From the IMG/VR virus record IMGVR_UViG_3300024520_000105, positions 1 to 51,052 of that record: DNA of 51,052 nt; one strand, 5' to 3'. The DNA is from a virus. Below, in pieces: positions 5,101-51,052 of the stretch. Within the stretch, counting starts at the first letter, position 1; each line of letters begins with the position of its first letter. The position numbers were made by a program, and so were the translations under genes. The notes beneath the pieces were generated by a model, which saw only the letters and a program-made list of their open reading frames with translations, searched no databases and was not told where the DNA came from.

Positions 5101-5129
5101 TATCATGGCCTCCTCTTAGTTAGAGGGTG

Positions 5130-12119: not shown

Positions 12120-12270
12120 CCTTAGCCCTTTCTTCTGGATACCGACCTATCCACTCTTTGAACGCCTCCCTGTGCAACTTCACAGAATCGTCCGTAATCA
12201 CCCCATCAACAAACTCTTTCTCATACTTGAGAATAAGCTGCCCTATGATTTTACTCGCAAACACACTCAT
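12100..12270 (-). CDS. Small hypothetical protein between terminase and co-chaperonin
   Basis: A 56-aa, charged, helical protein (start MSVFASKIIG). Its ATG shares a base with the terminase stop (TGATG), and its end overlaps the co-chaperonin start by 20 nt. Tight coupling argues that it is real. Function unknown. Confidence 0.65.
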   Translation of the reverse strand: MSVFASKIIGQLILKYEKEFVDGVITDDSVKLHREAFKEWIGRYPEERAKDESARD

Positions 12271-14135: not shown

Positions 14136-14335
14136 TCACCCGCCATATACTCTCGCTCAGCATCCTCATCCATGAGCGAATTACGCACCACTCGCCCCTT
14201 GATATGCTCTAATACCCCCACAACATCAATAACGGTCAAGTCAGCCTCTTTCTCCCACCGACAACACGTATTCATCACTGAGTTGTAGAACTGCTCCACA
14301 GGCTTCATGGTCGGTACATCCATCTCATCACTCAT
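14132..14335 (-). CDS. Hypothetical protein upstream of terminase
   Basis: A 67-aa acidic protein whose stop overlaps the terminase start (ATGA). No domain recognised. Position next to terminase suggests a packaging accessory, without further evidence. Confidence 0.6.
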   Translation of the reverse strand: MSDEMDVPTMKPVEQFYNSVMNTCCRWEKEADLTVIDVVGVLEHIKGRVVRNSLMDEDAEREYMAGE

Positions 14336-14426
14336 GCCAATCTCCCACTAATGCTACCCAAAACATCGCCCCAACCAGAATAACACTCACTATCGCCCCT
14401 ATCCACTTGAACGTCTCAATTATCAT
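14328..14426 (-). CDS. Single-pass membrane microprotein
   Basis: A 32-aa protein, MIIETFKWIGAIVSVILV followed by a short hydrophobic end and an acidic tail: one membrane segment. The ATG overlaps the previous stop. It is the last of three overlapping membrane microgenes and could belong to a holin-like set. Confidence 0.6.
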   Translation of the reverse strand: MIIETFKWIGAIVSVILVGAMFWVALVGDWHE

Positions 14427-14560
14427 AAATCCCCCGTAACCTTAGCATATACCCACATAACCCCAAATATCGCCCACACAACCACCTTCAATATCCCAGT
14501 CAATACAGCACATAAACAACTTATCACCAATAAGGCCACCCACCTCAATGCTCCCCTCAC
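14423..14560 (-). CDS. Membrane microprotein
   Basis: A 45-aa, almost entirely hydrophobic protein with a GTG start inside the previous stop (GTGA) and its own stop overlapping the next ATG. One or two membrane passes are possible (Val-Ala-Leu-Leu-Val-Ile-Ser and Val-Val-Val-Trp-Ala-Ile-Phe). Function unknown; holin or antiholin is conceivable. Confidence 0.55.
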   Translation of the reverse strand: MRGALRWVALLVISCLCAVLTGILKVVVWAIFGVMWVYAKVTGDL

Positions 14561-15160: not shown

Positions 15161-15409
15161 TTAGTGTTGTATCTTAGTAATAGAAACGGGCGGCGCAGGC
15201 GGTTTCTTAGATTCTGTCTTGGATTGAGGGGTACACGGACAGCAGCAGCAGCCCAACATAGTCTCAGCACTGCTTATGCTTCTAGGTGGCGGGGGCGGGG
15301 CTTCTCTGCCCTCTGGCGGGGCTACAAAGCCTTGCTCGTCTGAACCATCACCACTAGCCAATACAGTCCCCGCACATAGCGTGGCTGCTAGTATTCTAGC
15401 TATTTTCAT
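15161..15409 (-). CDS. Small exported Pro/Cys-rich protein
   Basis: An 82-aa protein with a signal peptide (MKIARILAATLCAGTVLA, then Ser-Gly-Asp-Gly) and a short mature part that has a run of prolines and a Cys cluster Cys-Cys-Cys-Cys-Pro-Cys. The Cys near residue 12 does not sit in a proper lipobox. Function unknown; an outer-membrane spanin-like peptide is possible in size, but the lipobox is missing. Confidence 0.6.
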   Translation of the reverse strand: MKIARILAATLCAGTVLASGDGSDEQGFVAPPEGREAPPPPPRSISSAETMLGCCCCPCTPQSKTESKKPPAPPVSITKIQH

Positions 15410-22050: not shown

Positions 22051-22896
22051 ATGTGTAAACCAGCAAGTATGATAATCGTCCACAAGAATGTGGCAAAATG
22101 GAGCGAAACTACAGACTCACACCATGAGATAATTACGGAGTTCGGAATAAGGGAGGTTGATGCTAGGGGTGATATTAACATTGTCCCCGTTGAGATGTGT
22201 CCTGAAGGGGGCAATCTTAGTATCGCATTGAGTAAATGGAAGTATGGCGTGGATTATCAGGAGTTTGGCCGCGAATTGCCAGACTGGTACGATGCCGAGA
22301 AGTCAGAGGCTGCGGCAAGAGCTGCATTGCCCATGTGGGCAGAGAGTAGATTAAAAGGGTGGAAGCTCAAAGAGGCGTTCAAGCCTATAAACCCTCTAAA
22401 GCAGAAGCAGGACAAATCGCTTGATAAAGCGGCACTGCTGAAAGAGTGGGCTTCGGTCAGGGATTCGGTCATGGATTCGGTCTGGGCTTCGGTCTGGGCT
22501 TCGGTCAGGGATTCGGTCAGGGATTCGGTCGTGGATTCGGTCTGGGATTCGGTCGTGGATTCGGTCTGGGCTTCGGTCTGGGCTTCGGTCAGGGATTCGG
22601 TCTGGGCTTCGGTCAGGGATTCGGTCTGGGCTTCGGTCTGGGATTCGGTCGGGGATTCGGTCGGGGATTCGGTCTGGGATTCGGTCTGGGATTCGGTCTA
22701 TGGATATATAGGCTCCCTGTTTCACAACATAAAGAACTGGAAATACACAGACAGCAAGAACCCGTGGGCCTCTATCCGCAAACTCTGGCTGGGCGGCTAT
22801 GTCCCTAGCTTTGACGGCAAGACATGGCGGCTTCATGCGGGGCTTAAAGCTAAAGTCGTGTTTGAGATTACAGCAGAAGAACTCAGGGCCAGCTAA
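22051..22896 (+). CDS. Protein with 21 tetrapeptide repeats (Asp/Ala-Ser-Val-x)
   Basis: A 281-aa protein. Residues 1-133 form a conserved-looking N-terminal domain with Trp-Lys-Tyr-Gly-Val-Asp-Tyr-Gln-Glu-Phe. Residues 134-217 are 21 tandem copies of (Asp or Ala)-Ser-Val-(Trp, Arg, Val, Gly, Met, Tyr). Residues 218-281 form a C-terminal domain with Trp-Lys-Tyr, Gly-Gly-Tyr-Val-Pro-Ser-Phe and Trp-Arg-Leu-His-Ala-Gly. The repeat likely forms a long helix or solenoid spacer whose length can change by slippage. Such repeats occur in uncharacterised phage proteins; no activity is known to me. The AAAGGAG ribosome-binding site is good. Confidence 0.8.
   Translation: MCKPASMIIVHKNVAKWSETTDSHHEIITEFGIREVDARGDINIVPVEMCPEGGNLSIALSKWKYGVDYQEFGRELPDWYDAEKSEAAARAALPMWAESRLKGWKLKEAFKPINPLKQKQDKSLDKAALLKEWASVRDSVMDSVWASVWASVRDSVRDSVVDSVWDSVVDSVWASVWASVRDSVWASVRDSVWASVWDSVGDSVGDSVWDSVWDSVYGYIGSLFHNIKNWKYTDSKNPWASIRKLWLGGYVPSFDGKTWRLHAGLKAKVVFEITAEELRAS
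22450..22701 (+). repeat. 12-bp minisatellite, 21 units
   Basis: The unit is (GAT or GCT)-TCG-GTC-NNN, repeated 21 times (252 bp) in frame in the 281-aa gene. As 12 is a multiple of three, other frames on both strands also stay open and give spurious Gly-Phe-Gly-Leu and Asp-Arg-Ile-Pro repeats. Expansion or contraction would keep the true frame. Confidence 0.95.
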
Positions 22897-28718: not shown

Positions 28719-29276
28719 ATGAAACACACACTACTCATAGCACTAATACTGGCAACTGGCTGTGGCTCGGTAAACTACGACAAGCTACAGGCTAAAGCCG
28801 AAAAGAAGCTAGGCCAAGAGATAGACGAAATCTTTAACCCCGCCCCCACCAGGGATACAGGGCCACAGGACGCCATAGACATGGATAAGGTCAAGTGGTG
28901 CTATGGCATGGCCCCAAAGAACCTACCTATCCAATACGCCATAGAGAATGCAAGGTATGGTGGTATAGGCTTAGAGTGGGATGGCAATGTCCCGCCCCAC
29001 TACAAGGGCATATCTAAGGGCTGTAACGCAGCTCTAGGCTTTGTAGTAAAGATAGACGAGAGTTACTATGGGGCATGGGGTGAGCAGGTTAGGGTTAAGC
29101 TCAATAATCAGACATTGGCGTTATTCCATAGCAGGGATGGGCTGACGTTTAAGGAGCCATTAGAGGAGTATAGCCATAAGCGCGGGGCAGAGTATTGGAT
29201 AGGTACGGCTTGTGGTGTATGTGCATTTGAGGGGCGGGCGAATCATGGCAGAAGCAACTTTATTAGGCTTAAGTAA
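28719..29276 (+). CDS. Candidate lipoprotein
   Basis: A 185-aa protein beginning MKHTLLIALILATGCGS: signal peptide ending Leu-Ala-Thr-Gly-Cys, a plausible lipobox with Cys15 as the lipidated residue. The mature part is soluble with two Cys-x-Gly-x-Cys-like elements. Early membrane-anchored lipoproteins of phages often block superinfection; that role is an inference. AAAGGAG ribosome-binding site. Confidence 0.7.
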   Translation: MKHTLLIALILATGCGSVNYDKLQAKAEKKLGQEIDEIFNPAPTRDTGPQDAIDMDKVKWCYGMAPKNLPIQYAIENARYGGIGLEWDGNVPPHYKGISKGCNAALGFVVKIDESYYGAWGEQVRVKLNNQTLALFHSRDGLTFKEPLEEYSHKRGAEYWIGTACGVCAFEGRANHGRSNFIRLK

Positions 29277-29365
29277 TGCACACGCTTGAGATCGGGTTCG
29301 CATTAGGCTTTCTGTGTGCTTGCTGGATTTGGTGGATGGTCGTTAAGGCTAAGGAGGAGAAGTGA
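29276..29365 (+). CDS. Membrane microprotein
   Basis: A 29-aa, single-pass peptide (Leu-Gly-Phe-Leu-Cys-Ala-Cys-Trp-Ile-Trp-Trp) with a charged C-terminus. TAATG coupling upstream, GTGA coupling to the methyltransferase. It contains one of the few GATC sites in the genome (29290). Confidence 0.5.
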   Translation: MHTLEIGFALGFLCACWIWWMVVKAKEEK

Positions 29366-30024
29366 AAGCATATTATCAGGATAGCTATTGTACGATATAT
29401 CACGGGGATTGTAGGGAAGTGTTGCCAGAGGTGGGTGACGTGGATTTAGTGTTGACCGACCCACCTTATGGGGTGGGCAAGCTTGTGGGCGGGATTTCCA
29501 AGGCTCGCAACAAGAACCATTATGCGTCACACGACGATACAGAAGAGTTTGTTGAAACCGTGGTGGTGCCCGTTATTATCACATGCATTGAAAAGGTGCA
29601 GAGGGTTGTTTTGACGCCAGGTTCACGGTGCATGTGGCTATACCCCCGCCCCTACTGCACAGGCGTATTCTATTATCCTGCCGGAGCGGGCATGTCGCGG
29701 TGGGGTTTTAACTGCTGGCAGCCAATCCTTTTCTATGGCAAAGACCCCTATGGTGGCACCTTGGGAAAACACAACGCTAGACGCAGCACTGAGGCGTCGG
29801 ACAAATCTATTGACCACCCGTGCCCCAAGCCCATTGGCGACTGGAAGTGGTTGCTGGACAGGGCCAGCAAGGAAGGCGAAACCATACTGGACCCGTTCAT
29901 GGGCAGCGGAACCACCCTCAGAGCCGCCAAGGACCTACAACGCCACGCTATAGGCATAGAGCTAGAGGAGAAGTACTGCGAAATAGCTGCCAAGCGTCTA
30001 GCGCAGGAGGTGTTGGCCCTATGA
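29362..30024 (+). CDS. DNA methyltransferase (N4-cytosine or N6-adenine), copy 1
   Basis: A 220-aa protein with a GTG start. The catalytic motif Thr-Asp-Pro-Pro-Tyr-Gly (32-37) precedes the S-adenosylmethionine-binding motif Asp-Pro-Phe-Met-Gly-Ser-Gly-Thr-Thr (177-185), the beta-class order. The C-terminus (Ile-Gly-Ile-Glu-Leu-Glu-Glu-Lys-Tyr-Cys-Glu-Ile-Ala) is standard. It is paralogous to 33742-34395: both ends are nearly the same, but the middle target-recognition part differs. No partner endonuclease adjoins it. It likely protects phage DNA from host restriction; the target is unknown. Confidence 0.92.
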   Translation: MKAYYQDSYCTIYHGDCREVLPEVGDVDLVLTDPPYGVGKLVGGISKARNKNHYASHDDTEEFVETVVVPVIITCIEKVQRVVLTPGSRCMWLYPRPYCTGVFYYPAGAGMSRWGFNCWQPILFYGKDPYGGTLGKHNARRSTEASDKSIDHPCPKPIGDWKWLLDRASKEGETILDPFMGSGTTLRAAKDLQRHAIGIELEEKYCEIAAKRLAQEVLAL

Positions 30025-33362: not shown

Positions 33363-33745
33363 CATGCCTAGAGTGTAAGTGGTTTGTGGTAGGTGCGACC
33401 TTTGGTGCTGGCCCTGTGAACTATTGTAACAGATACCCGCACTACTTCCATAGGCGAGACGAGGACCCTGCTTGTGGCGAGTTCAAGCCAGCCAAGGCCG
33501 CCCCAACCAAACGCTTCGTCCCGCCCACCACAATAGAGGTAAAGGAATACGCTGAGTCTATAGGCTATAGGCTAGACGCAGAGGCGTTCTGTAGCCACTA
33601 TGATAGCAATGGCTGGAAGGTGGGCAAGAATAAGATGAAGGATTGGCGGGCGGCTGTTAGGACATGGAAGCGCAATGCTACCCCTGACGAGCTAGTAGGC
33701 AATGATGGCTTTGATTTGAGGGAACTTAGGAAGGAGGGGGCGTGA
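33359..33745 (+). CDS. Replisome organiser / helicase-loader-like protein
   Basis: A 128-aa protein with an N-terminal Cys-rich part (Cys-Leu-Glu-Cys-Lys-Trp...Cys-Gly-Glu-Phe). Its C-terminal motif, shared by phage replication initiators and DnaT/DnaD-type loaders, reads Glu-Val-Lys-Glu-Tyr-Ala...Phe-Cys-Ser-His-Tyr-Asp-Ser-Asn-Gly-Trp-Lys-Val-Gly, Met-Lys-Asp-Trp-Arg-Ala-Ala-Val-Arg-Thr-Trp. It sits just upstream of a methyltransferase and the DnaB helicase. Probably assists helicase loading. Confidence 0.65.
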   Translation: MTCLECKWFVVGATFGAGPVNYCNRYPHYFHRRDEDPACGEFKPAKAAPTKRFVPPTTIEVKEYAESIGYRLDAEAFCSHYDSNGWKVGKNKMKDWRAAVRTWKRNATPDELVGNDGFDLRELRKEGA

Positions 33746-34395
33746 GCAAGCCATACTACCAAGACGATTACTGTACTATATATCACGGGGACTGTAGGGA
33801 GGTTCTGCCTACACTGGACAAGGTGGACCTAGTGTTGACGGACCCGCCTTATGGGATATTCAAAAACGTAGGCGGTTCTGGCGTTATGTTTGGGCAACCA
33901 ACCATATACTCAGACGACGATAGCGCGGCAGAATGGGATAAGAGGCCAAACAAAGCAACGCTACTTTTGGTTAGGGACAAGGGCGTTCAGTATGTCATCT
34001 GGGGCGGCAACTACATGGCCGACGCGCTGGGTGCGTGTAAGGGCATATTGATATGGGACAAAAAAACGGGGAACAATAGCTATGCAGACGGTGAGTGTGC
34101 TTGGTCTAATGTGGCAGGAACAATGCGTATTCTACATCATCAATGGTGTGGCGCGTTTAAAGACAGTGAGCGCGGACATAGGGCTGTTCACCCCACACAG
34201 AAACCAATAGCGGTTATGGCTTGGTGTATTACGCTAGCCGACAATCCCGACACCATCCTAGACCCCTTCATGGGTTCAGGCACGACCTTAAGGGCGGCAA
34301 AGGACCTACAGCGTAAAGCCATTGGCATAGAGTGCGAAGAGAAGTATTGTGAGATTGCGGCCAAGCGATTGGCCCAAGAAGTATTGCCCTTATGA
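33742..34395 (+). CDS. DNA methyltransferase (N4-cytosine or N6-adenine), copy 2
   Basis: A 217-aa protein with a GTG start inside the previous stop. Catalytic Thr-Asp-Pro-Pro-Tyr-Gly (33-38), His-Pro-Thr-Gln-Lys-Pro (150-155) and Asp-Pro-Phe-Met-Gly-Ser-Gly-Thr-Thr (174-182) are all intact. The first 35 and last 45 residues nearly match copy 1 at 29362, while the centre differs, as expected for a different target. The stop overlaps the helicase start, so it is expressed with replication genes. Confidence 0.92.
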   Translation: MSKPYYQDDYCTIYHGDCREVLPTLDKVDLVLTDPPYGIFKNVGGSGVMFGQPTIYSDDDSAAEWDKRPNKATLLLVRDKGVQYVIWGGNYMADALGACKGILIWDKKTGNNSYADGECAWSNVAGTMRILHHQWCGAFKDSERGHRAVHPTQKPIAVMAWCITLADNPDTILDPFMGSGTTLRAAKDLQRKAIGIECEEKYCEIAAKRLAQEVLPL

Positions 34396-39288: not shown

Positions 39289-39513
39289 ATGCCAACAACA
39301 AGCACAAAGACACTGCCCAAAGCCATGCAAAACCTGATAAACGAGCTGCCCCAGTCACGCCAAGACAAGTGGGTAGGTGAGCCTGCCGAGTTCCTGCGTG
39401 AATGTGGTAAGCAAAAGAAGTCTGCTACGAGTGTCCACAAGATATTCGTTAAGCACTACTTCCCTGCCAACGCATCAACCATAGCAAGGAAGATGAAGGA
39501 GCTATCGGCCTAA
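39289..39513 (+). CDS. Small hypothetical protein, last rightward gene
   Basis: A 74-aa basic protein (start MPTTSTKTLPKAMQNLIN) with a helical C-terminal half, a possible DNA binder. Its TAA overlaps the stop of the convergent leftward gene at 39510-39513; no terminator lies between them. Confidence 0.6.
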   Translation: MPTTSTKTLPKAMQNLINELPQSRQDKWVGEPAEFLRECGKQKKSATSVHKIFVKHYFPANASTIARKMKELSA

Positions 39514-39983
39514 ACCACCACATCTGGGGCGTGTCCAGCCTTCCATGGTCCGCCCCCACATAGACGCACTAGCCTATATATCAGACCAACCTTAATCCGC
39601 CCACCACCCTCAACCTTAATCATCCTACGCAGACATAGCTTATCTACGTCCTTCCTACTCATATCATGGAACACATAGGTATGCCCATGTGGCCCCTTCT
39701 TATACAGCCCATGGTGATGATAGCCACTATCATGGAAGATATAGCTTAGCAGGAACTCGTCTTTAGGCAGGAACAGTTGCAGACTAGCAGGTGTAGAACC
39801 CATGTCTGTTTCGGCTAAGTGTTGGTCTGGGCGATACCTTGTCCCATCAGGCATCTCAAAGGTCAATGGCGCATTCTTCTTTAGGCGGAACTCATATATG
39901 GCTTTAGGGAAGATACCTAGACGCTTGACGTTCTTCACCTTGTCCAAGGCGTACCCCCTAGGATTGATGAATGCGCCCAACAT
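39510..39983 (-). CDS. DUF1353-like protein
   Basis: A 157-aa protein with the DUF1353 pattern: Glu-Thr-Asp-Met-Gly-Ser-Thr-Pro-Ala-Ser near residue 58, then Ser-Tyr-Ile-Phe-His-Asp-Ser-Gly-Tyr-His-His-His near 80, and Arg-Lys-Asp-Val-Asp-Lys-Leu near 113. Function of the family is not established; it is frequent near phage lysis and tail-end genes. It closes the late operon. Start ATG shares a base with the previous stop. Confidence 0.7.
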   Translation of the reverse strand: MLGAFINPRGYALDKVKNVKRLGIFPKAIYEFRLKKNAPLTFEMPDGTRYRPDQHLAETDMGSTPASLQLFLPKDEFLLSYIFHDSGYHHHGLYKKGPHGHTYVFHDMSRKDVDKLCLRRMIKVEGGGRIKVGLIYRLVRLCGGGPWKAGHAPDVVV

Positions 39984-40381
39984 CACTCTTCCACCTCTGC
40001 CACATCCATTGTATGGCTTACACCGACAGTCCTAAGCTTGGCCATCTCATATCTAAGGAACACAAAGCCCCCCACCACGCCTAAAAGGATAAGGGCTAAT
40101 ACCACTATCTTTACAGCGTCCATACCTCTAGCACTGATTACGGGCTTACCTGTTATGGGGTTGTTGATGACTAGGCCATTGACTGTGGGTTGTGGGGCGG
40201 GGGTTTCCAGTACATCTAGGCGTTGCTCAACCTCTGTCCTGACAGCACAGCCGTTAGCCTTTAGCTCGTTTAGGTCCACGCTCAGCCCATCGACCTTGGC
40301 GTGAATCACCTGACGCTCATCCTTGGCACTCTCGGCATATGCCAATAGCTTGCCTATATCCTTGTCTGTCCCGTTGGTCAT
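39983..40381 (-). CDS. Membrane protein with coiled coil, candidate lysis or spanin-like
   Basis: A 132-aa protein with a cytoplasmic coiled coil (about 15-55), a Pro/Asn-rich linker, one strong membrane segment (Val-Lys-Ile-Val-Val-Leu-Ala-Leu-Ile-Leu-Leu-Gly-Val-Val, about 89-108) and a short outside tail. It could be a holin partner or assembly factor. It follows the 23-aa membrane peptide in the late block. Confidence 0.6.
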   Translation of the reverse strand: MTNGTDKDIGKLLAYAESAKDERQVIHAKVDGLSVDLNELKANGCAVRTEVEQRLDVLETPAPQPTVNGLVINNPITGKPVISARGMDAVKIVVLALILLGVVGGFVFLRYEMAKLRTVGVSHTMDVAEVEE

Positions 40382-40405
40382 CCCTTTACTCCCTTACCTT
40401 CCCCT

Positions 40406-40477
40406 TTACCACATAAACCATAACAATAGGGCTGTAGCCAATGCCATCATTAACCCTACGATTATAGACCATTTCAT
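40406..40477 (-). CDS. 23-aa membrane peptide
   Basis: ATG shares a base with the preceding stop (TAATG). The peptide is Met-Lys-Trp followed by an almost unbroken hydrophobic stretch of about 18 residues ending Trp-Phe-Met-Trp. Very short, but the coupling and the composition favour a real membrane peptide at the end of the late operon. Confidence 0.45.
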   Translation of the reverse strand: MKWSIIVGLMMALATALLLWFMW

Positions 40478-40893
40478 TATTCATCCGATGGGTTCAAGTT
40501 CTTTGTATATGCCCAACCCTTGCTCGCCAGCGTATTAGTCACATCAAAAGTGCCCGCAAACATTACGCCAGGGTTATCGTCTGTCCATGCCTTGAACTTA
40601 GCTATCTCTGCTGCGTCTAGGCTGCTCTTGGCCTGCTGGAAGGATACGACATATATACGACCTGTAACATTGGTATCGCTTATCTTATGGGTGGGCATCC
40701 AGCCTTGGTCTACCTTGTTACGGTTGGGGCGAGTGTCGTCTTTATCCCAGATAGCCAGTTGGATCTTTTGAAGCTTGTTGCTGTTGGCCGCATAGAAGGA
40801 GTCTCTGCAACCCAGAACGAACAGCTTGATACTGTGGTCGCCAGCCATGCAGGGCAGCGCAATCAAAGCGAAGAGTAATAGTATCTTCTTCAT
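40477..40893 (-). CDS. Small exported protein
   Basis: A 138-aa protein starting MKKILLLFALIALPCMA then Gly-Asp-His, a strong signal peptide. The mature part is alpha/beta (Lys-Leu-Phe-Val-Leu-Gly, Ile-Gln-Leu-Ala-Ile-Trp). I chose the ATG at 40893; six codons upstream are in frame but would spoil the signal. It lies next to the lectin gene. It carries one GATC (40762). Confidence 0.75.
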   Translation of the reverse strand: MKKILLLFALIALPCMAGDHSIKLFVLGCRDSFYAANSNKLQKIQLAIWDKDDTRPNRNKVDQGWMPTHKISDTNVTGRIYVVSFQQAKSSLDAAEIAKFKAWTDDNPGVMFAGTFDVTNTLASKGWAYTKNLNPSDE

Positions 40894-41684
40894 TTCCGCC
40901 CCATCTGCCACAACTGAAATATTTGGTTAGAGGTGTATGCCGTATCGCAGTCCACGATGATGTCGTCCATATTGCCGCTGAAGTGTGCGCCGGGAGAGTC
41001 CTGATTATATGCTCCGATCATAATGTCAGAGCTGCTATTGAAGAGAGGGTTCTGTACCCCATCGTCCCTGTCAAGCCCCTGCTGTATGCCATTACGGTAT
41101 ATCTTAATCACCTGTGCGGACGATGCGTCCCACGTGATGCCTATGTGTTGCCATCCTGTAGCAATAACCCCTTGAGCAGTCCATGAGTTGCTGTTCGCGC
41201 TCCCGCTATTGGAGAAGTTGAACCTCATCCTGCCGCTGTCCCATTGGTAACAGGTCCACGAGTTCTGACTGCCACCGCCGCCGCGCTTATTGATATACGC
41301 TTCCTCCGTGTTGGCATTGTCAGGGTCCACCCACAGCGCAACCGTGAGCTTGTTGCCAGCGTCGAGGCCGCTGTTGTCAGAAATGAATCCAGTATCGCCT
41401 CCATCAAGGCTGATATACTTATTCGTCCCTTCGTCAACAGTCGTCCACGCCCCGGCCCCGTCTGATTTGTTGACGTTGTTCGTATCGCTGCCACTGTCAA
41501 CCTCTGCGTCGTTGAGCGTCTGATTAAAACTGAGCATTACAACGGTCCCTGTGTACGCATTGGAAGGCACCTTCAAATAGTCAAAGGTGTTTGTGAATCC
41601 CGGCACCCTCCCGAACTTCCAATCACCACCGCAGGCTGTCGAGGCCACAAGCAGCAATAGAACTATGAGTTTATTTGAAGTCAA
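40890..41684 (-). CDS. Exported LamG-type lectin-like protein
   Basis: A 264-aa protein beginning with a signal sequence (Leu-Ile-Val-Leu-Leu-Leu-Leu-Val-Ala-Ser-Thr-Ala). A Cys follows but the lipobox is imperfect. Residues about 100-260 form a concanavalin-like jelly-roll: Leu-Thr-Val-Ala-Leu-Trp-Val, Ile-Asn-Lys-Arg, Trp-Gln-His-Ile-Gly-Ile-Thr-Trp, Ile-Lys-Ile-Tyr-Arg-Asn-Gly and Met-Asp-Asp-Ile-Ile-Val. Such domains bind glycans. It directly follows the fibre gene, starts with TTG inside it, and probably helps receptor binding. Confidence 0.8.
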   Translation of the reverse strand: MTSNKLIVLLLLVASTACGGDWKFGRVPGFTNTFDYLKVPSNAYTGTVVMLSFNQTLNDAEVDSGSDTNNVNKSDGAGAWTTVDEGTNKYISLDGGDTGFISDNSGLDAGNKLTVALWVDPDNANTEEAYINKRGGGGSQNSWTCYQWDSGRMRFNFSNSGSANSNSWTAQGVIATGWQHIGITWDASSAQVIKIYRNGIQQGLDRDDGVQNPLFNSSSDIMIGAYNQDSPGAHFSGNMDDIIVDCDTAYTSNQIFQLWQMGRK

Positions 41685-44553
41685 AGGTGTTCGTCCTTAT
41701 TGTTGGGGCAGAGTTGGTGTGGTAGTATACGACCCATGCCCCACCAGAGAAGTCCTGCTCTGCCCAGTCACTAGGACCGTTGGAGTAGAAGATGGAGCCT
41801 GAACCAACGTCAAATGCATCGGCCTTGACTGTGCCTGCCACGTCAACCACTTGAGTAGGAGAGGTTACACTAAAGCCGACATTCCCATTCTCTAACAGAC
41901 GTACTGACTCAGCGTTCCCGGGCCTTAACACTATGGGCTCGGTAGAACTTATCTGACACTCAGTCGAAGATAAGCCGTAGTCTACCGTCTGTCCGCCACC
42001 GGGACGAGAAAGCCTTATCTTATCGTTGACCCCGTCTGACGCGACATGGAGAGGCTGAGTACTGGCATCTATTCCGATTCCCACGTTGCCCGTCAATGTC
42101 GTTGTCAATTTATTCGTAGCAGGTAGGTCCACAACCAATCCGCCGTCCACGTTAAGGTCGTTGTCTATATCCACATTTCCCGTATCGGCTATAGTCACCT
42201 TCTGTGTGCCGCCAAGATAGAACTCTATATCTCCGCCATTCCTGCCCGCCTCAAGCCAGAGGTCGCCATTCGAACTATTGGTGCCATAGGCCAATACACT
42301 AGCACTAGGGCCATTCTCTGCCCCACCCCATATAGCCACAACCCCATCCTCATCATTGCGGTGTATAGCCGATGAAGCACCTAGAGTAAGGTCAGCGTTT
42401 ATAGCCTGTTCAGCGGTCCATACGTTGACCTCATTCGTGTTGGGGATTTGCAGCATGACGTTAGTGCCGTTGACGGTCAGCACACCATTCACGGTTTGAT
42501 TAGCGTTCCACACTAAAGCTTGGTTGGTGGTAACGAATGTCCCGTCTTGGTTGGGCACAGTCCATGTCCTCGTAGTGGCCGTACTCACCTCGCTAACCTC
42601 AAGAGCCAACAGCTTGGTAGAGTCGCCATCGTCAAACACCCTGAAAGAGCTATCGCTGAATACGCTTGCTGCAGCACTAGCCGAGCTACCCCCACCCGAA
42701 GTGAATAGAGGGAACCCACGCCTATCGGTAATAATGGTAGTCCATGTCCCGCTACCCGCAGTCTGCCTTCTCAGGGTAAGCGTAGCCAGCCATACAGCCG
42801 TACTCTCTAAGTCCTTATCTACGCTGAGTACGCTAAAGGCACTAGAGTCAGCCAATGCCGCAGCTTCGGTGCTGTACTGGTCGGTAGACAGGTTAAGCCC
42901 TATCTTCATGCCTATATTGTTGGTAGAGCCTGAAGGGGCGAATCCTATGACCTGTACGTTGAACCTAGCGTTGTTTGAGTCCAACACAGCGACACCATTA
43001 GCATCAACGCTTATCTGGTTTAGGTTCGTGATGGCCTTGATGCCGCTGGGATCGTTAAGGATATGATACTCAGCAGAAGCGTCCACATTCGTGACAGCAG
43101 TCACGTTCTGTAAGTGAAGCTGGTACGCGGTCCCTGCATCCATTGTCACAAAAACGTCATCCTCGGCAGCCCCGTTCACATTCGTCCTGACATTAGCGGC
43201 CATACCCGTCTGCCACTTGGCACCCAGAGTCCTAATCCTCTCGCCTATATGACTGAGCATGCCCCTACCGTTAGGGCCGCCCACCATCTCGGTCCATCTC
43301 TGAAGCAGCGTTGGCCCTTCATCATCCTGCACATCGGCAGCATCCAATAGCCCCACCTTAAACAGTATGGCCACCTCACCCGTAGGCTTATCACCATCTG
43401 CTACGAGTATGGCGTTAGATGTAGCATAGACCCAACTAATCTGAAGATTATTGGTAGCCCCAGCAGTCATCAATAGGTTCGATGGCATGGCATAGCTCAC
43501 TGGACGCCCGCCCCAGAAATACACCAATGGCGCACCATCAGTAGAATTAACCGCACCCGTAATAGCATTGCCATCTGTACTGAAGTTTATCGTTTGCCTA
43601 TTGGACGATAGCCCATCGGCTATGCAATGGGTGAATGCGCCAGCGGTTAGGTTGGATATGGATATAACATCAGCTTGATTTGACACTATCGCCAGATCCC
43701 ACTGATTGCTTCTATCGGTCAGCGTGCTGCCCGTAATGTTCCATGTATTGCTTCTGTCAACTATCGTAGAACTTGCCACATCCCATGCACTCGACCTAGC
43801 AACGATAGTGTCGCTGGCCACATTCCATGACTGCGTATCACTTGCCGCTAAGTCCAATGAAATAGTGTTCACACCCGCAACCGCCCCACCATCTCTGCCA
43901 AGCAGCCCAGACACAAATATGCTATTGGTGAATAGGCTCGCCCCACTAAGAGACGCAGCATAGTTCGTCGCAAACGTCACGGTCATTAGCCCCGAAGACA
44001 GTTTGACATTATTGCTCGTACTCTCATCAAAGGCTACGCTACTGGTGAACGGCCAGTTACTCATGCTAGTCAATGTATGCAGGGGTGGCCCTATAAGAGC
44101 ATTAGCCAATGGGTTAGTCCATGCGCTTTGATCCTGATTCTCAAACAATGAATGGTGTATCTGCACTTTGCCCTTAGCGATACTACGACCTGGTACATTG
44201 GTGTACTGGCTCTCATAGCCCAGCAGTTCAGCGAAGTATACGTTATTAGGGGGCAAGCTTGTCCTGACTATAGTAGCCAAGTAATTGGTCTGCCCACTAA
44301 CTACACCATTGGTCACATCCAAGAACACTGGGCCAGTCTGCTTTCTAGTAAGCCTGAATATCATGCCCGTATAGGCATAGTCACTGTTCAGGTTTAGCAC
44401 TTGGTCGTCGTAACCAGACCAATTCCATGTGAAGTTGGTATAGTCAAAGCTTAGGTTGGCATTGACAAAGTTCTCGGTATTGGTGTTGCGTGGGAATGCC
44501 ATGGCCACTGACGGTATGAGCAGGGCTAGGGCTATTAGTTTTAGGTGTTTCAT
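41671..44553 (-). CDS. Exported fibre protein
   Basis: A 960-aa protein. I chose the ATG at 44553, which shares a base with the preceding stop (TAATG) and gives the signal peptide MKHLKLIALALLIPSVAMA. The body is Thr/Asn/Ser-rich and beta-structured, with Ser-Xaa-Trp-(Asp/Asn)-Val/Ile-(Ala/Thr)-Ser repeats around residues 265-310 (Asp-Arg-Ser-Asn-Thr-Trp-like). The C-terminal third has tail-fibre phrases: Leu-Thr-Gly-Asn-Val-Gly-Ile-Gly-Ile-Asp, Glu-Asn-Gly-Asn-Val-Gly-Phe, and Val-Asp-Val-Ala-Gly-Thr-Val-Lys-Ala-Asp-Ala-Phe. Likely host-binding. Three of the six GATC sites of the genome lie here. Confidence 0.85.
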   Translation of the reverse strand: MKHLKLIALALLIPSVAMAFPRNTNTENFVNANLSFDYTNFTWNWSGYDDQVLNLNSDYAYTGMIFRLTRKQTGPVFLDVTNGVVSGQTNYLATIVRTSLPPNNVYFAELLGYESQYTNVPGRSIAKGKVQIHHSLFENQDQSAWTNPLANALIGPPLHTLTSMSNWPFTSSVAFDESTSNNVKLSSGLMTVTFATNYAASLSGASLFTNSIFVSGLLGRDGGAVAGVNTISLDLAASDTQSWNVASDTIVARSSAWDVASSTIVDRSNTWNITGSTLTDRSNQWDLAIVSNQADVISISNLTAGAFTHCIADGLSSNRQTINFSTDGNAITGAVNSTDGAPLVYFWGGRPVSYAMPSNLLMTAGATNNLQISWVYATSNAILVADGDKPTGEVAILFKVGLLDAADVQDDEGPTLLQRWTEMVGGPNGRGMLSHIGERIRTLGAKWQTGMAANVRTNVNGAAEDDVFVTMDAGTAYQLHLQNVTAVTNVDASAEYHILNDPSGIKAITNLNQISVDANGVAVLDSNNARFNVQVIGFAPSGSTNNIGMKIGLNLSTDQYSTEAAALADSSAFSVLSVDKDLESTAVWLATLTLRRQTAGSGTWTTIITDRRGFPLFTSGGGSSASAAASVFSDSSFRVFDDGDSTKLLALEVSEVSTATTRTWTVPNQDGTFVTTNQALVWNANQTVNGVLTVNGTNVMLQIPNTNEVNVWTAEQAINADLTLGASSAIHRNDEDGVVAIWGGAENGPSASVLAYGTNSSNGDLWLEAGRNGGDIEFYLGGTQKVTIADTGNVDIDNDLNVDGGLVVDLPATNKLTTTLTGNVGIGIDASTQPLHVASDGVNDKIRLSRPGGGQTVDYGLSSTECQISSTEPIVLRPGNAESVRLLENGNVGFSVTSPTQVVDVAGTVKADAFDVGSGSIFYSNGPSDWAEQDFSGGAWVVYYHTNSAPTIRTNTFDFK

Positions 44554-47500
44554 TATCGTCTCCGTGTACGTCTTCTGCTTTTCTTGCGGGGTGTATGTTC
44601 TGAAATTGATAGGCCAAAGAATGCCCCCGCTCCAGCAGCAGTTGTCTTTACTGGGTCGTGAGTCCCTACCCATAAGTCGTGAACCTCCTGCCAGACCAAA
44701 GGGGCAAACGCCCTGATAAGCGTTTCAACTTTACCCTGCTCTTGGCCTATTGCGTTTTTGCCCTCTACCAAAGCCACAAGCCCAGTCACCGTTGGGTTCA
44801 GTTTGTAAAAGACGAATCTTGACATTAAATCTCTAAGGTTGGTGTTGACTTCTCTTCCGCCGAATGCTTGCTTTCCCTTTAGAGCCGCAACAGCCAAAAT
44901 GCGGGCAGGCTGCTGAAGGCCAGCGAACAGGTCTATTCTGGTATTGCCGACTATGATTTTTCCCCAGTCGCTACTCTCTGGGTCTGTCCCTACATCTGCA
45001 CCTGCAAGTTGAGCAAGACCAATCGCGGACGCCGTAACAGTGGAAAACGCGAAGAAGTCTTTGGCAATCTCGTTTCTAACTCTAGGGTTCTTCCAATTCT
45101 TAAAAAAGGCAAGTGGAGTCTGCACCCTAGAAGCAGTGAAACGCGGAGCAAAGAATGCAGTGGCCAAGTCCTCTGCCGCCCTATTAAAACTGCCCAAATC
45201 GCCCCTGCCACTGGCCTTGTTTACATAATCAGCCCACGCCCTAAGTTCAACGTCTGTAGCGTTGGGATAGGTTTTTGCGAACTGGTCAAACGATGCCGCC
45301 CTCATCATGTTCAGCATAGTAGTCATATTGCGGTTTGACCCCTTAACAAGTTTACCAAACCCTAGTATCTTCTCTGCCAAGCGCGACGCAAACTGTTCCT
45401 CTCCAGCCCGTATAGGTCCGTCTAGCGTAGCCAAGAACAGGCCAGATTTGTCACGCTTCACTTGGTTGGGGTGGTTGCGAAGGTTGAAGTCTATGGCGTC
45501 AGCCTTGTGCTGCGAGAAGAACGCACCAAAAGCCTTGCCGAACGACTTGGCGAATGTTCCTGGCCGTCTTGCTCCCAATATCGCAGCCTGTCTCAAGGCT
45601 CCAGACATATCTGCCGTTGCAAGAGTTGCCCTTGAGAGCGAACCGACCTCTCTGGCTATTTGAGTCCTTGTCAGCGGTTTCTTGCTGTCTATCAATGCCT
45701 TTACATCACGCTTCTTGGCCGCCAACTTAACAGCAGCATTCTCAAGTTCTTCTAGGCGTACCCGCTTATCTCTCTGCGGGGTAGCGGCAAAATCATCCTC
45801 TGCAATCTGGCGGTCCAGGTCTGCTATCTTGTCATTGGTACGCATCAAAGCCCTCAAGTCTGCCAAATCCTGCTTAGCCTTGGTTATGTCAGCCCTGTCT
45901 TCTGGTCGGGCCTTCTTGACATCCCTTTGTCCTGTAGCAAGTTGGTCCTGAACTTGCTGTATTTTCAACTGAACCTCTTTAAGCTTCATATCGTCATTGA
46001 TGGTGCGAAACGCACTCGTCTTTAGCTTCTTCAAGAGCTTTCGTAATTCTTTCACCCTAGCAGAATCAGACGCCTTTAGGGCTGGTTGGTCAAATATGCC
46101 CTTCTGTGCATCGTCTATCTTGGCCTCTAGCCTAGCCTGAATCTTCAAGTCCGACTCAACACTCCTAGCCTCTTTGCGCTGCCGAGACTTCTCTGTGCGC
46201 CTTTTGCCAGCCAATGAATCCCATACCTGCCTGTCCGTTAAGTCCGGCACATCTAGCCTCACACGCTCGGCCACAGCCTCTAACGTGGTAGCACCCTGCT
46301 TGATATGGTTTATCGCCAGCTTCCCGATAATCCTAGCGGCTTCAGGGGCCAGCCCTGTAACGTCATTGACCCTATGGCCCATGGTAGCAAGTTGCTTCTT
46401 AAGGTCAGCCTGCTCTTCCGCTAGACCAGCCTGCTTTCTCCTGCGCCTTGTCTGGCCAACTTCCTCTTTGAGTACACGGCCCGCATTCTTCTTTGACCTA
46501 CCAGCATCCATCTTGTCAGCAGCTGCCGTCAATTTAGCAACTTGGTCTTCTAGCGTCCGTATCTGGTCTGTCAGATTCTTGGCCTCTACGTTCTCTTTGA
46601 CGGTCAGCTTATCACCCTTAGCAACTTTGAGTGCCTGTTTTAATCCAGCCAGAGTGTATACCTCTCTGTTGATTCTTAGCCTTTGGAGGTTGAGTGCACC
46701 ACCAGCCTTTGACCCACGGAACCTTGCAGCCTCAGTGATAACGTCAAGAATCTCGTCTTTAACGTCTAGTTGGGTCTGCAATTTTGCGGCCTCTGCTGGT
46801 TTGCCAGCATCTATCAAATCGGCAGCTTTTTTCACTATTGCCGCCCGCTCGTCTTCCAGTTGAGCTGTCCTGAGAATCATAGCCACGAACTCATCGTCTG
46901 TTATGTTGCCCTTGTTCTTTATCGCGCCTCTAGCAACCTCCTCCGCCTGCTGGTCTAGCCCCTTTGCCTTGACTCTGTTCAATCTGTCAGCAAACGTGCG
47001 CTGGGCTTCAGGCTCTATCTGGTCTAGCTCGGACGCATCCCTGATTCTGGCAATCTCTTCCTTCGTCAGTGCAGTTGTGTTGTCTGGCCTAGTTGCCGCA
47101 GACTCTTGCTGCTGCTTAACGGTCACATCATCATCTATGTTGCTTGCAGTCTTAAGGGCCGCCTCTTGGGCCGCTATGCGCTCTGCTGATGCTGGTATCG
47201 GGCGGGGGGCTTCAGGGGCGGCTGATGGTGAAGGCGACGGTTGCTTGAAACTGTCTATTGTCTCTAAAAACTCTTTGGCCCACGGAGCGGGAAGCTTAGA
47301 CTCTACAAACGCTCTTGACGCTTGGGCGGCCTCAACCTCAGCAGGTTGTTCAAAATAGGGGATGCGCCTTGATTCCCTTGTTTGTCCACGCCCTTCTAAT
47401 ATCTGCACAACGTGCTGAAGCTCATGGGCTATGCCCGCAGATGCCTCGTCAATATTCCTAGCCGTGAACCTTATTGTGTGCTGGCCTATGGATGATTTGT

Positions 47501-49154
47501 CGGTTGCATCTACCACCGTACTAACCTGCCCATGAACGGGGTCATAAACACCGTCTGGGTCTATGCGTACATCCACCCTCACATTCTCAGCCTCTGGAAA
47601 GTCTGCAAACAGCTTCTCGTCACCTACAACATTGGAGAGCTTTGTATCTATGTTTGTATGCGTAACATCTTTCCCGCTTGGAACCCTAAGCGTTCTCTCA
47701 AGATGTGCTGGAATATCTATACGGGAGGCATATGTAGGAACACCGCGATTTGTTTCACCACTTTGAAGTGCAAAAACAGGCTCCCCCTTTGATATGGAAG
47801 ACCTGTCGGCAACAGAGATGACGCTGGGGGCTTCCCTTGGCGTTGGCCTTATGGGTGTCTCCCTCTGCTCAGGGGCCGCCACAGGTTCTTCGACCACTGG
47901 CCTAGATTCACCTGTCTCGTCTATCTCTATGCGCTGTGGGGCTTCTGGTACAGGTGCAGGAGCTTCCTCTGTCTTGAACCCCGTCTTCTCGCCCTCGGCC
48001 AAGTCCTTCTTGAACTTAGACAGAACGGCTTTCTTGGTCTTGCGGGCAAACATATCAAATTCGCCCTGACTGCGCTGTAGCTTCAGTCTACCACTCTTGG
48101 TAGCGTTGTCCTCTAGACCAAATACTATGCTCATAGCCAACTGCGGCATCTCTTCTTTGATGAACCAATCCATGAATGACTGGTCCTGTAGCCTATCCCT
48201 AAGCCCTAAATCGGTAATCATGTCAAAGGCCAAGTCTGTACCCACCTGAGCCAAGAAGTTGCTTACACCTGGCCCAACGGTCTGCTCTGGGAATATGCCT
48301 ATAAGCGATGCTGCTACAGACTGCCCAAAGTTGGCTGCTGCAGTCTTAGGGTCTACGCCAGCGTCTAAAGAAGCTAGACTCCTAACGCCAGAGGTTATGC
48401 CCGCTGTGCCAAGCCTTGTGGCGAACAACTGACCTAAGCTGGAAAGCTCCTGCACCTTCTTAAGCCCACCAAAAGCACCCGCAACAGCCCTACCCGAAAG
48501 GACTGCGCCAATAAGGTTCAATGTGGAGTTGGCAATCTGCTCACCTGTGGACTGGGCGTTGAGTTCGGCACCTGCAGCCTTGCCAAGCCTATCAAGCACC
48601 AAGTCACTCAATCCTAGCGTAAGCCCAGACTCTAGGGACTTTAGCCCCCTGAACACAGGTTCTGCTGCACCAAGGAACTGTTCTGCCCCTGCACCCTCGC
48701 CCTCTATGCTGGCAGCAGACTCTAAGCCTGCCAACCTCTGAAACTCGTTAAATCTTTTGTTGGCCGTCTGCTGGGCGGCAACATCACCAGACGCCTGTGC
48801 TGCCCTTAGCTCCTCCTTAGACCGCTCCAGCCCTGCGACAATGGCATCATCTGTAGTCTTGGACTCCTGTATGAGTTCGCTGGCAGGGCCTTGGGCTGGC
48901 GTAGCATCGGCTACACTCTGGCGCAGCATGGTGTCACCCTCTGGCTGGCCGTCTGGGGCGGTTAGTGCGGTTCTCGTCTGGATTGGCTGAGACAGGAAGT
49001 CCAAGGACTCGTCCTGTGCTGCCACGGGCGGGGCTTTCGCTGGACCGTCTAGCAAGAAATCAAGAGACTCGTCTTGTATGGAAGGAGTGCTGGCAGGTTC
49101 TGCCTGTCCTACATCATCTAACAAGAAGTCGAGACTATTGTTATTGCTTGCCAC
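44553..49154 (-). CDS. Giant internal virion/ejection protein with metallopeptidase motif
   Basis: A 1533-aa protein with a GTG start and AAGGAG upstream. Residues 1-55 hold three Ser-Leu-Asp-Phe-Leu repeats (about 7, 30 and 50). A predicted membrane-active helical part lies near 150-345. A peptidase-like segment with the zinc motif His-Glu-Leu-Gln-His (577-581) lies in a domain like LPD23 of large polyvalent proteins. A long coiled coil (about 650-1150) follows, and the C-terminal 300 residues resemble the phage polyvalent-protein tail (Asn-Lys-Ala-Ser-Gly-Arg-Gly-Asp, Phe-Phe-Ala-Pro-Arg-Phe-Thr-Ala-Ser-Arg-Val). The very basic end is Arg-Arg-Arg-Thr-Arg-Arg-Arg. Podovirus-type ejection protein is the best reading. 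Confidence 0.82.
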   Translation of the reverse strand: MASNNNSLDFLLDDVGQAEPASTPSIQDESLDFLLDGPAKAPPVAAQDESLDFLSQPIQTRTALTAPDGQPEGDTMLRQSVADATPAQGPASELIQESKTTDDAIVAGLERSKEELRAAQASGDVAAQQTANKRFNEFQRLAGLESAASIEGEGAGAEQFLGAAEPVFRGLKSLESGLTLGLSDLVLDRLGKAAGAELNAQSTGEQIANSTLNLIGAVLSGRAVAGAFGGLKKVQELSSLGQLFATRLGTAGITSGVRSLASLDAGVDPKTAAANFGQSVAASLIGIFPEQTVGPGVSNFLAQVGTDLAFDMITDLGLRDRLQDQSFMDWFIKEEMPQLAMSIVFGLEDNATKSGRLKLQRSQGEFDMFARKTKKAVLSKFKKDLAEGEKTGFKTEEAPAPVPEAPQRIEIDETGESRPVVEEPVAAPEQRETPIRPTPREAPSVISVADRSSISKGEPVFALQSGETNRGVPTYASRIDIPAHLERTLRVPSGKDVTHTNIDTKLSNVVGDEKLFADFPEAENVRVDVRIDPDGVYDPVHGQVSTVVDATDKSSIGQHTIRFTARNIDEASAGIAHELQHVVQILEGRGQTRESRRIPYFEQPAEVEAAQASRAFVESKLPAPWAKEFLETIDSFKQPSPSPSAAPEAPRPIPASAERIAAQEAALKTASNIDDDVTVKQQQESAATRPDNTTALTKEEIARIRDASELDQIEPEAQRTFADRLNRVKAKGLDQQAEEVARGAIKNKGNITDDEFVAMILRTAQLEDERAAIVKKAADLIDAGKPAEAAKLQTQLDVKDEILDVITEAARFRGSKAGGALNLQRLRINREVYTLAGLKQALKVAKGDKLTVKENVEAKNLTDQIRTLEDQVAKLTAAADKMDAGRSKKNAGRVLKEEVGQTRRRRKQAGLAEEQADLKKQLATMGHRVNDVTGLAPEAARIIGKLAINHIKQGATTLEAVAERVRLDVPDLTDRQVWDSLAGKRRTEKSRQRKEARSVESDLKIQARLEAKIDDAQKGIFDQPALKASDSARVKELRKLLKKLKTSAFRTINDDMKLKEVQLKIQQVQDQLATGQRDVKKARPEDRADITKAKQDLADLRALMRTNDKIADLDRQIAEDDFAATPQRDKRVRLEELENAAVKLAAKKRDVKALIDSKKPLTRTQIAREVGSLSRATLATADMSGALRQAAILGARRPGTFAKSFGKAFGAFFSQHKADAIDFNLRNHPNQVKRDKSGLFLATLDGPIRAGEEQFASRLAEKILGFGKLVKGSNRNMTTMLNMMRAASFDQFAKTYPNATDVELRAWADYVNKASGRGDLGSFNRAAEDLATAFFAPRFTASRVQTPLAFFKNWKNPRVRNEIAKDFFAFSTVTASAIGLAQLAGADVGTDPESSDWGKIIVGNTRIDLFAGLQQPARILAVAALKGKQAFGGREVNTNLRDLMSRFVFYKLNPTVTGLVALVEGKNAIGQEQGKVETLIRAFAPLVWQEVHDLWVGTHDPVKTTAAGAGAFFGLSISEHTPRKKSRRRTRRR

Positions 49155-50622
49155 GATTGTTCTCCTTCACCAGTAGCTTGGCCGCCTTATAATTGTCCAC
49201 CGCGAGCTTTGCTGCAGCACTTCCCTTTTGCTCGTTCACCGTCTTGAATATCTTGATTACGATTTCCTCATCATTCAAGCCTTCAAAGAGAGGGCTGTTT
49301 TTCACCCTGTCAACCCTGTCAACCGCCTTTGCAAACGCAACGTCATCTGAGTCTATGCGGCCATCTCCGTTGGCATCCCCCACGCTCTCTGGGGATGTAG
49401 TTGGGCGTTGAGCGTCTGGCACAGGAACAGTCTCAAGTTCTGGCACCTCTGGCGTACCAGTAGGTCTTGTAATGTCTGTGCGGCCCACAACAACCTTGCC
49501 TTCCTCATCGAATATATCTTCAGAGATTGTCTTCTTGCCCACCTTGGTCTTTTCAAACTCAACCAGAGCATTGAACCTAGCCATATTCTCGTCACGCAGG
49601 GCTTCTCTCTTCTCCTTCTCCAACTGTGCCTGTAATCTAGCAGGGTCACGCGCAAACTCGCCAGCAGCCACTTGTTCTGCTACACGCTTTTGTTCAAGCT
49701 GTACCTTGGCGGCATCAAGCCCAAACTTCAGTTTATCTGCTGCACTAAGAGTGCCAAACTGAAACGCTTTCTGGATTCTATTTGCCCTATCTATTCGCTC
49801 CCTAGACTCTGCGGCAACCCTAGCTGACTCGCCTTCAAGCCGAAGCTCTGACTCAAGGTCGGTAGCAGTCTTCTTCTCGGCAATAATAGCGTTCCTATTA
49901 GCAGCCAACCTATCCTCTAACTGCTTAATCTCGCCACCAATCTGCGCCTTAGCACTCTCTTTGGCCTCTAGCGTCTTAGCACCAGAGAACCTGCGATTGA
50001 ACGCAAGGGTTGAGCCAAGCTGCTCTCTAAGTTCTGCAAGCTGCGCCTCTAACGGCCCCTGCTCTTGGCGTTGCTTCTGCTCTGCTGGGGTCAACGCCTT
50101 GCGCTGGCCAGCACTCTCAGCCCGCTGTACGGTGCCAGTAGCTTCGTCAAATATCTCGCCTTCAGCCACACGTCTATCTTCTATCGGTACAGACGCACCC
50201 AACTCTAGTGGGCCGCCAGCAAACTTGCTGCGTTCTGTAGCTAGGGCCTGCTCTAGCGGGTTCTTCTGTATCTGTGAAGGCAATACGAAGTCCACGCCAG
50301 CCTCATCGGCCAAGCGTGCAGCATCCGAAGTCTCGCCAACTACGGGGCCAGTAATGCGGCCCGGCAGCGTTGCTCGCCTAATCTCTTCGTCCTGCTGTGC
50401 GGCTAATTCGGGGAACTCTTCCTTGTTGATTGGCTCACTCTCTATCTCCAGCCTGTCTGCATCCGTAATGCCTCTTGTTGCAAACGCTGCCCCTACCTGC
50501 CTGCCTTGTGCTTCGGCTAGTGCCACCTTCTGTGCTGCTGAAACGCCAGGAAGCGTGGTTATCGCCCCGCCCCCTAAGTCGAACAGCTCTTTCCTTGTTT
50601 TTCTTCTTCTTCCGTTAGCCAT
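49141..50622 (-). CDS. Coiled-coil virion protein with dockerin-like calcium motif
   Basis: A 493-aa protein. Residues 185-360 are long coiled coils (Leu-Glu-Ala-Gln-Leu-Ala-Glu-Leu-Arg-Glu-Gln-Leu). Residues 415-427 (Gly-Asp-Ala-Asn-Gly-Asp-Gly-Arg-Ile-Asp-Ser-Asp-Asp) form a single dockerin/EF-hand-like calcium loop. The C-terminus is helical and basic. It overlaps the 1533-aa gene by 14 bp and, by position, may be a partner in an ejection complex. ATG preceded by AGGAGAT. Confidence 0.78.
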   Translation of the reverse strand: MANGRRRKTRKELFDLGGGAITTLPGVSAAQKVALAEAQGRQVGAAFATRGITDADRLEIESEPINKEEFPELAAQQDEEIRRATLPGRITGPVVGETSDAARLADEAGVDFVLPSQIQKNPLEQALATERSKFAGGPLELGASVPIEDRRVAEGEIFDEATGTVQRAESAGQRKALTPAEQKQRQEQGPLEAQLAELREQLGSTLAFNRRFSGAKTLEAKESAKAQIGGEIKQLEDRLAANRNAIIAEKKTATDLESELRLEGESARVAAESRERIDRANRIQKAFQFGTLSAADKLKFGLDAAKVQLEQKRVAEQVAAGEFARDPARLQAQLEKEKREALRDENMARFNALVEFEKTKVGKKTISEDIFDEEGKVVVGRTDITRPTGTPEVPELETVPVPDAQRPTTSPESVGDANGDGRIDSDDVAFAKAVDRVDRVKNSPLFEGLNDEEIVIKIFKTVNEQKGSAAAKLAVDNYKAAKLLVKENNRGKQ

Positions 50623-50631
50623 GACTATCTC

Positions 50632-51052
50632 CTATGGAGTTGTGTTATCAAATGAGAACTCCCAATCATACGTCCAGACTGTCTCGTTTATCTCTATTCG
50701 TTTCGTCTCATTGGACGCTATCGGGAATTGTGGAACAGGGTTGTTTGTGCGGCCATACTCTACTGAGCCAAACCGCTGTGGGGTGTTGGTCACGGCCAAT
50801 GTTTCAACACGATACCAGTTAGTGGGTATAGTCCATGGGTAGCCGTCATAGCCAGTAGGTCTATTGCTATAGGCGTTAATGGTTAGGGACGCAGGGTCGC
50901 TTAAGAACCATATGCTTGCCTCTGAAGGTATGTGGGTGGCGATTTGGCCTGCCCATGCCTGTCCACGCTCTCTGTCGCCCTCTACGGTGAAACTGAAGGG
51001 GGCTGTTCGTTCAACTCGGCCCTTAACCTCGTATGGGCGTAAGGATGCCCCA
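50632..51052 (-). CDS. Exported virion-type protein, C-terminal part (runs off window end)
   Basis: The frame is open from 51052 to the stop at 50632-50634. It is the C-terminal part of the 373-aa protein whose start is at 919; the last 218 bp repeat the beginning of the window. The visible part is beta-like, with Thr-Asn-Trp-Tyr and several aromatic residues, and ends before the 493-aa gene with a 9-bp gap. Confidence 0.8.
   Translation of the reverse strand, partial: GASLRPYEVKGRVERTAPFSFTVEGDRERGQAWAGQIATHIPSEASIWFLSDPASLTINAYSNRPTGYDGYPWTIPTNWYRVETLAVTNTPQRFGSVEYGRTNNPVPQFPIASNETKRIEINETVWTYDWEFSFDNTTP
50835..51052. repeat. Terminal redundancy, right copy
   Basis: Same sequence as 1-218 except for four synonymous transitions. 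See the left copy. Confidence 0.9.

Follow-up and report, generated by a model that had tools for sequence, protein, structure and literature searches.

The window analysed here, which is the whole stretch of 51,052 nucleotides of the virus record IMGVR_UViG_3300024520_000105, is the genome of a tailed phage whose outer-type late proteins carry Sec export signals, whereas its core morphogenetic proteins carry none. The signals are conserved among related phages, and they stand on proteins that include a cement-like fold and a virion-docking fold, both recognised in predicted models. Assembly of tailed phages is regarded as an entirely cytoplasmic process. A tailed phage family that exports head-cement and fibre proteins would be a novel variant, and its particles may be built in a way that is new for tailed phages.

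Since the ends of the window overlap over 216 bp, with 98.6% identity and three mismatches (positions 1-218 versus 50837-51052), the genome is read as a complete circle of about 50.8 kb, the two copies of the overlap being slightly different. The late genes occupy the minus strand; they start at 18 kb, run down to position 1 and continue past the join from 51 to 39.5 kb. No tRNA genes were found in the window. The core set is composed of TerL, the portal, a scaffold-like gene, the major capsid protein (MCP), a 120-aa adaptor-like gene and two large internal-type proteins. The members of this set listed below are all devoid of export signals:

12270-14135, minus strand: TerL, the terminase large subunit (PHROG matches and tblastn; alignment of 11)
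8033-10237, minus strand: portal-like protein of 734 aa, assigned by position and size and kept in relatives
5172-6125, minus strand: MCP (PHROG and tblastn)
3376-3738, minus strand: head-tail adaptor-like protein of 120 aa, between the capsid block and the gene for a 711-aa protein (8 phages aligned)
44553-49154, minus strand: internal or ejection-type protein of 1533 aa, whose slot holds 2230 aa in the relative G003 and 2531 aa in the relative G012
49141-50622, minus strand: internal-type protein of 493 aa

A 210-aa protein encoded between TerL and the portal resembles GroES, and a GroES gene is also present in this block in annotated distant relatives. The terminase, the portal (assigned by position and conservation only) and the HK97-type capsid gene, grouped in a morphogenetic block, place the phage among the Caudoviricetes.

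Signal peptides were called with a purpose-written rule-based scorer, not with SignalP, that evaluates the n-region, the h-region and an AxA-type c-region. This scorer recognised 12 of 14 known signal peptides of E. coli. When applied to T7, lambda, P22, DSL-LC04 and QDWS535, it matched spanins, Lom, Bor and further ORFs that are small or early, whereas no annotated head or tail gene of these phages passed. The initial annotation had listed eight late proteins with Sec signal peptides (960, 264, 138, 373, 105, 711, 142 and 82 aa), and all of them were recovered, each with its n-, h- and AxA-type c-region; the scorer passes none of the window's 18 other late proteins. After shuffling of residues 2-40 the tagged proteins still pass in only 1-19% of cases. 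The tagged proteins of the window and of its relatives show the features of Sec type I signals, namely a positive n-region, a hydrophobic h-region and small residues at -3/-1. On the other hand, TerL, the portal, the MCP, the adaptor and the large internal proteins are untagged everywhere they were seen, in the window and in its relatives, and the scaffold of the window is also devoid of a signal. A need for disulfide bonds was considered as the reason for export and rejected: cysteine amounts to 0.3% in both the exported and the core proteins of the window.

Relatives were gathered by scans with the MCP, portal and TerL sequences, and they range from close (MCP identity of 68%) to very distant. 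The late gene order of the window recurs in G003, whose sequence is a complete circle, and in the long contigs G012 and G009. In a tree of 23 MCPs, 16 phages, the window included, are split off by a branch with 100/100 support, the MCP identity going down to about 31%. An export signal, either a signal peptide or a membrane anchor, is present on the gene or genes directly following the capsid gene in 16/16 phages of this clade, so that the pattern sought in related phages recurs in 15 others. Wherever a relative is complete from MCP to adaptor, this stretch encodes one or two proteins that are either membrane-anchored or equipped with a signal peptide. On the other side of the same branch, five untagged phages group with L078, which possesses signal peptides of its own. 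Because L078 lies outside the clade, the export trait seems to have had two or more origins. The L078 proteins concerned, apparently an independent case, are the post-capsid protein of 331 aa (L078:8879-9874) and a late protein of 916 aa (L078:11639-14389). In another relative, a 105-aa frame (L002:178-495) contains a Tat-like motif, NRRKFLKMLGIGAGATAV.

The genes that follow the capsid gene in the window are these:

4228-5106, minus strand: membrane-anchored protein of 292 aa that adjoins the capsid gene, with about 55 residues and then one transmembrane segment, placed at about residue 53
3748-4176, minus strand: protein of 142 aa with a signal peptide and a predicted cement-like beta domain (AlphaFold, VIA-align; signal peptide in all 8 homologues)

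The anchor previously noted on the capsid neighbour is thus present, on a protein of 292 rather than 290 aa. The homologues of this protein are anchored in L002, L004, L016 and L077 and carry a signal peptide in the others. In the window and in these four relatives, the N-terminal domain of the first post-capsid protein is helical and charged and precedes a single transmembrane segment; such an anchored protein may tether capsids to the membrane. This architecture would suit an assembly sited at the membrane, in which the anchored protein holds the capsids at the inner membrane, the signals bring the surface proteins to the same place and the particles may exit together with the envelope or across it. 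However, in most of the distant relatives the first post-capsid protein has an ordinary signal peptide and lacks a cytoplasmic domain at its N-terminus, and the topology would keep the exported cement across the membrane from the capsids until that membrane opens. Membrane-sited assembly is therefore considered distinctly unlikely.

The 142-aa protein was modelled with AlphaFold from eight aligned homologues. The signal peptide appears as a helix and is followed by an all-beta domain (pLDDT 73.5). When the mature part of the model was compared with the PDB by VIA-align, the cement proteins of KHP40 (Z 9.9) and KHP30 (Z 9.0) ranked first and second, and the capsid cement chain of Pam1 (Z 8.5) ranked fourth; these matches cover only the mature part of the protein and hold at fold level only. 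Foldseek alone returned generic beta-sandwich matches from the PDB, the cement match emerging upon realignment. A sequence-profile search of the PDB with the cement-slot and 711-aa families found nothing, and a profile comparison of the post-capsid families with the untagged cement-slot proteins of DSL-LC04, 023Pt and HTVC023P gave no link. With respect to its location, the 142-aa gene lies directly after the capsid block, where DSL-LC04 has its annotated cement gene, and this place is kept in relatives. Judging from the predicted model, the 142-aa protein looks like a candidate capsid cement or decoration protein.

The same fold also matches YomS (Z 8.1), a prophage lytic-cassette protein (PMC6834076), and the small tagged proteins could be regarded as a lysis or host-killing cassette instead of virion components. 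This we consider most improbable, since cement proteins outrank YomS for the 142-aa fold, the genes concerned are located between capsid and adaptor, far from the holin-type gene at 39983-40381, and the tagged fibre would be left unexplained.

The fibre and its tagged neighbours are encoded at the other end of the late block:

41671-44553, minus strand: tail fibre of 960 aa, with a signal peptide at residues 1-19 (MKHLKLIALALLIPSVAMA, followed at the predicted cleavage site by FPRN) and then a predicted BppU-like docking domain
40890-41684, minus strand: LamG/concanavalin-like protein of 264 aa with a TTG start, beside the fibre, with a signal peptide (Pfam PF13385, E 4e-17)
40477-40893, minus strand: protein of 138 aa with a signal peptide; the same slot is tagged in G003

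The 960-aa start of the fibre is favoured over a longer frame of 1000 aa because a Shine-Dalgarno sequence, GGAG, precedes the former and is missing from the latter. The signal peptide is kept in 4/4 fibres found (window, G003, G009 and G012), other parts of these proteins going down to 16-26% identity; as many of the contigs are incomplete, only four phages yielded a fibre. A model of the mature fibre N-terminus built on these four sequences reached a pLDDT of only 56. For this low-confidence model, the top six PDB entries are phage baseplate/docking, neck or connector proteins (Z 8.9-10.7), the ranking being led by TP901-1 BppU, with 80alpha among the best, and the next unrelated fold reaches Z 7.3. 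The mature fibre N-terminus hence looks, in this prediction, like a BppU-like virion-docking domain. The earlier proposal that the fibre itself is exported finds agreement in the signal peptide and in the docking-type fold, the export step being deduced from them. A double start yielding a cytosolic fibre was rejected as a general idea, since the ATG that precedes the mature N-terminus in the window is absent there in G003 and G009.

The homologue of the 264-aa LamG protein in G003 is also tagged and also has a LamG domain. In G012 a tagged protein, likewise of 264 aa, contains a domain that occurs, untagged, right after the fibre gene in the rhizobial T7-like phages Lo5R7ANS and RHEph03 of the Autographiviridae (E 2e-15, 35%). 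Beyond these LamG domains and this fibre-adjacent domain of G012, searches of Pfam and PHROGs with the exported proteins gave little. Taken together, the cement-like fold, the docking domain and the G012 domain indicate that the signals stand on apparently ordinary virion-surface modules. In G009, a collagen-like protein with a tail-collar-like end (L022:9656-10426) has no signal peptide; tagging in this phage therefore does not extend to all outer-type parts. At the end of its tagged cluster lies a lipoprotein-like protein of 140 aa (L027:13891-14313; LLAC).

The exported proteins might never join the virion and instead coat or modify the envelope of the infected cell, reusing virion-type folds for receptor block, superinfection stop or decoys. 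Phage-encoded exported proteins are indeed known, for instance Lom and Bor of lambda, both matched by the scorer; moreover, one of the exported proteins has a LamG lectin-like domain, and beta-sandwich folds are also present in secreted lectins and CBMs. However, a cement fold in the position of a cement gene and a fibre with a virion-docking domain point to virion parts, and no second fibre gene was recognised in the window. An envelope-modifying role is accordingly judged unlikely.

The remaining tagged genes are these:

1241-3376, minus strand: protein of 711 aa with a GTG start and a signal peptide found in the window only
927-1256, minus strand: GTG frame of 109 aa (105 aa from Met5, 927-1244) with a signal peptide; the slot is untagged in relatives
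1-919, minus strand: N-terminal part of a 373-aa protein with a signal peptide, whose gene crosses the circular join
50632-51052, minus strand: C-terminal part of the 373-aa protein; the last 216 bases repeat the start of the window
15161-15409, minus strand: Cys-run protein of 82 aa with a signal peptide, for which no homologue was identified

The slot of the 373-aa gene is tagged in L003, L020, G012 and G013, and no tagged gene was seen there in G003 and G009. None of the counterparts of the 711-aa protein, comprising six aligned homologues and four genes at the same position, carries a signal, and its closest relatives begin exactly at the predicted mature N-terminus of the window protein (GAEYNIGVLLNER versus MAAEYKIDILCAEE and MADYQIDTLLAER). 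On this alignment, the 711-aa signal is best read as a recent addition in one phage. This speaks for a reading in which the N-terminal hydrophobic stretches are assembly arms or neutral additions and not working signals. Such a reading is nevertheless very unlikely, because the letters change across a deep clade but the charge, the hydrophobic core and the AxA-type end persist, and because the start of the 711-aa relatives coincides with the predicted cleavage site.

The preferred reading is an assembly in two compartments, to which we assign about an even chance of being correct. TerL, portal, scaffold, capsid, adaptor and ejection-type proteins would assemble and fill the particle in the cytoplasm, and the head cement, the tail fibre, the fibre-side lectin and other proteins would be made as Sec precursors and exported. 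Signal peptidase would trim these precursors, which would fold in the periplasm, and the meeting point may be marked by the membrane-anchored protein encoded next to the capsid gene. At lysis, the opening of the inner membrane by the holin would bring the filled particles into contact with the stored surface proteins, and cement and fibres would then bind to the particle, completing the virion. We infer translocation, cleavage, joining at lysis and a diderm host from the signals and folds described above. The interpretation given in the initial annotation is supported in part. Among the three options that it offered (assembly of adsorption structures in or on the envelope, attachment during lysis, or a secreted layer acting after release), attachment during lysis fits best, since the tagged proteins are the outer ones and the core is untagged; the virion would then be completed outside the cytoplasm. 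Joining at lysis is also favoured because the tagged proteins resemble components whose addition can wait until the end of assembly. From a chemical standpoint such late joining is reasonable, given that decoration proteins attach to finished capsids in vitro (PMC7602432) and that steps of T4 tail assembly proceed in mixed extracts (PMC3004832, PMC9576892). Against the two-compartment model, particles might have to find surface proteins that are diluted after lysis, and some outer-type parts are untagged in relatives, namely the 711-aa homologues and the collar-like protein of G009.

A broader proposal, somewhat short of an even chance and hence tentative, is that this lineage has moved the whole completion of the outer surface (cement, fibres and lectins) beyond the inner membrane, to be finished at lysis with Sec-exported proteins. 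If this is true, virion assembly, lysis timing and host range would be tied to host secretion, and soluble periplasmic fibres and cement would be shared goods and possible receptor blockers. Virion maturation outside the cytoplasm could then be tested directly in this lineage, and an export signal on the gene after the capsid would serve as a marker for finding further phages of this kind.

Several known phages share part of this organization. The short-tailed DSL-LC04, Pam1 and KHP30/KHP40 have, as here, a GroES-like gene, the same order of portal and MCP, and, right after the MCP, a cement-type protein, for which the 142-aa protein is the candidate in the window. However, the cement-slot proteins of DSL-LC04, 023Pt, QDWS535 and HTVC023P are devoid of signal peptides, unlike those of the window clade. 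The baseplate upper proteins of TP901-1 (BppU) and 80alpha resemble in fold the predicted, low-confidence model of the mature fibre N-terminus, but in the window the docking domain is directly preceded by a signal peptide of the cleavable type, and the sequence of the long fibre behind it is unrelated to database families. In Lo5R7ANS and RHEph03, the fibre-adjacent protein that shares a domain with the tagged G012 protein has no signal peptide. The cultured Pelagibacter phage HTVC023P, a distant MCP relative, has two late proteins that begin with signal peptides, gp45 and gp46 (L031:12394-13050 and 13084-14469). Unlike in the window clade, signals are absent from its two post-capsid proteins, and no relationship at family level with the window proteins was found. 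Filamentous phages (inoviruses) export their coat proteins by Sec/YidC, so that virion proteins cross the inner membrane before the virion is completed, as proposed here. However, inoviruses are ssDNA filaments that lack a terminase, a portal and an icosahedral capsid, whereas the window is a dsDNA tailed phage with a terminase, a portal and an HK97-type capsid gene. No description of such a lineage was found in the open-access literature, subscription journals being outside the scope of the search.

With respect to the host, an MCP scan of genome contigs gave no match. The TerL scan found one 11-kb contig with the same tagged pair in a Hydrogenedentota MAG, where it has low coverage and is perhaps mis-binned; a phylum-wide search of the Hydrogenedentota added only an unrelated terminase. 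In that contig the MCP frame is broken (L055:6466-7421), probably by a sequencing error, and the two tagged genes follow.

The early region of the window presents some features of its own. A 185-aa early protein (28719-29276, plus strand) has a signal peptide followed by a cysteine (MKHTLLIALILATG, then CGS) and is lipoprotein-like. Imperfect tandem repeats are present within an early plus-strand gene (22447-22699), and two early genes (29351-30024 and 33731-34395), which show about 74% DNA identity over parts of their length, are likely duplicates.
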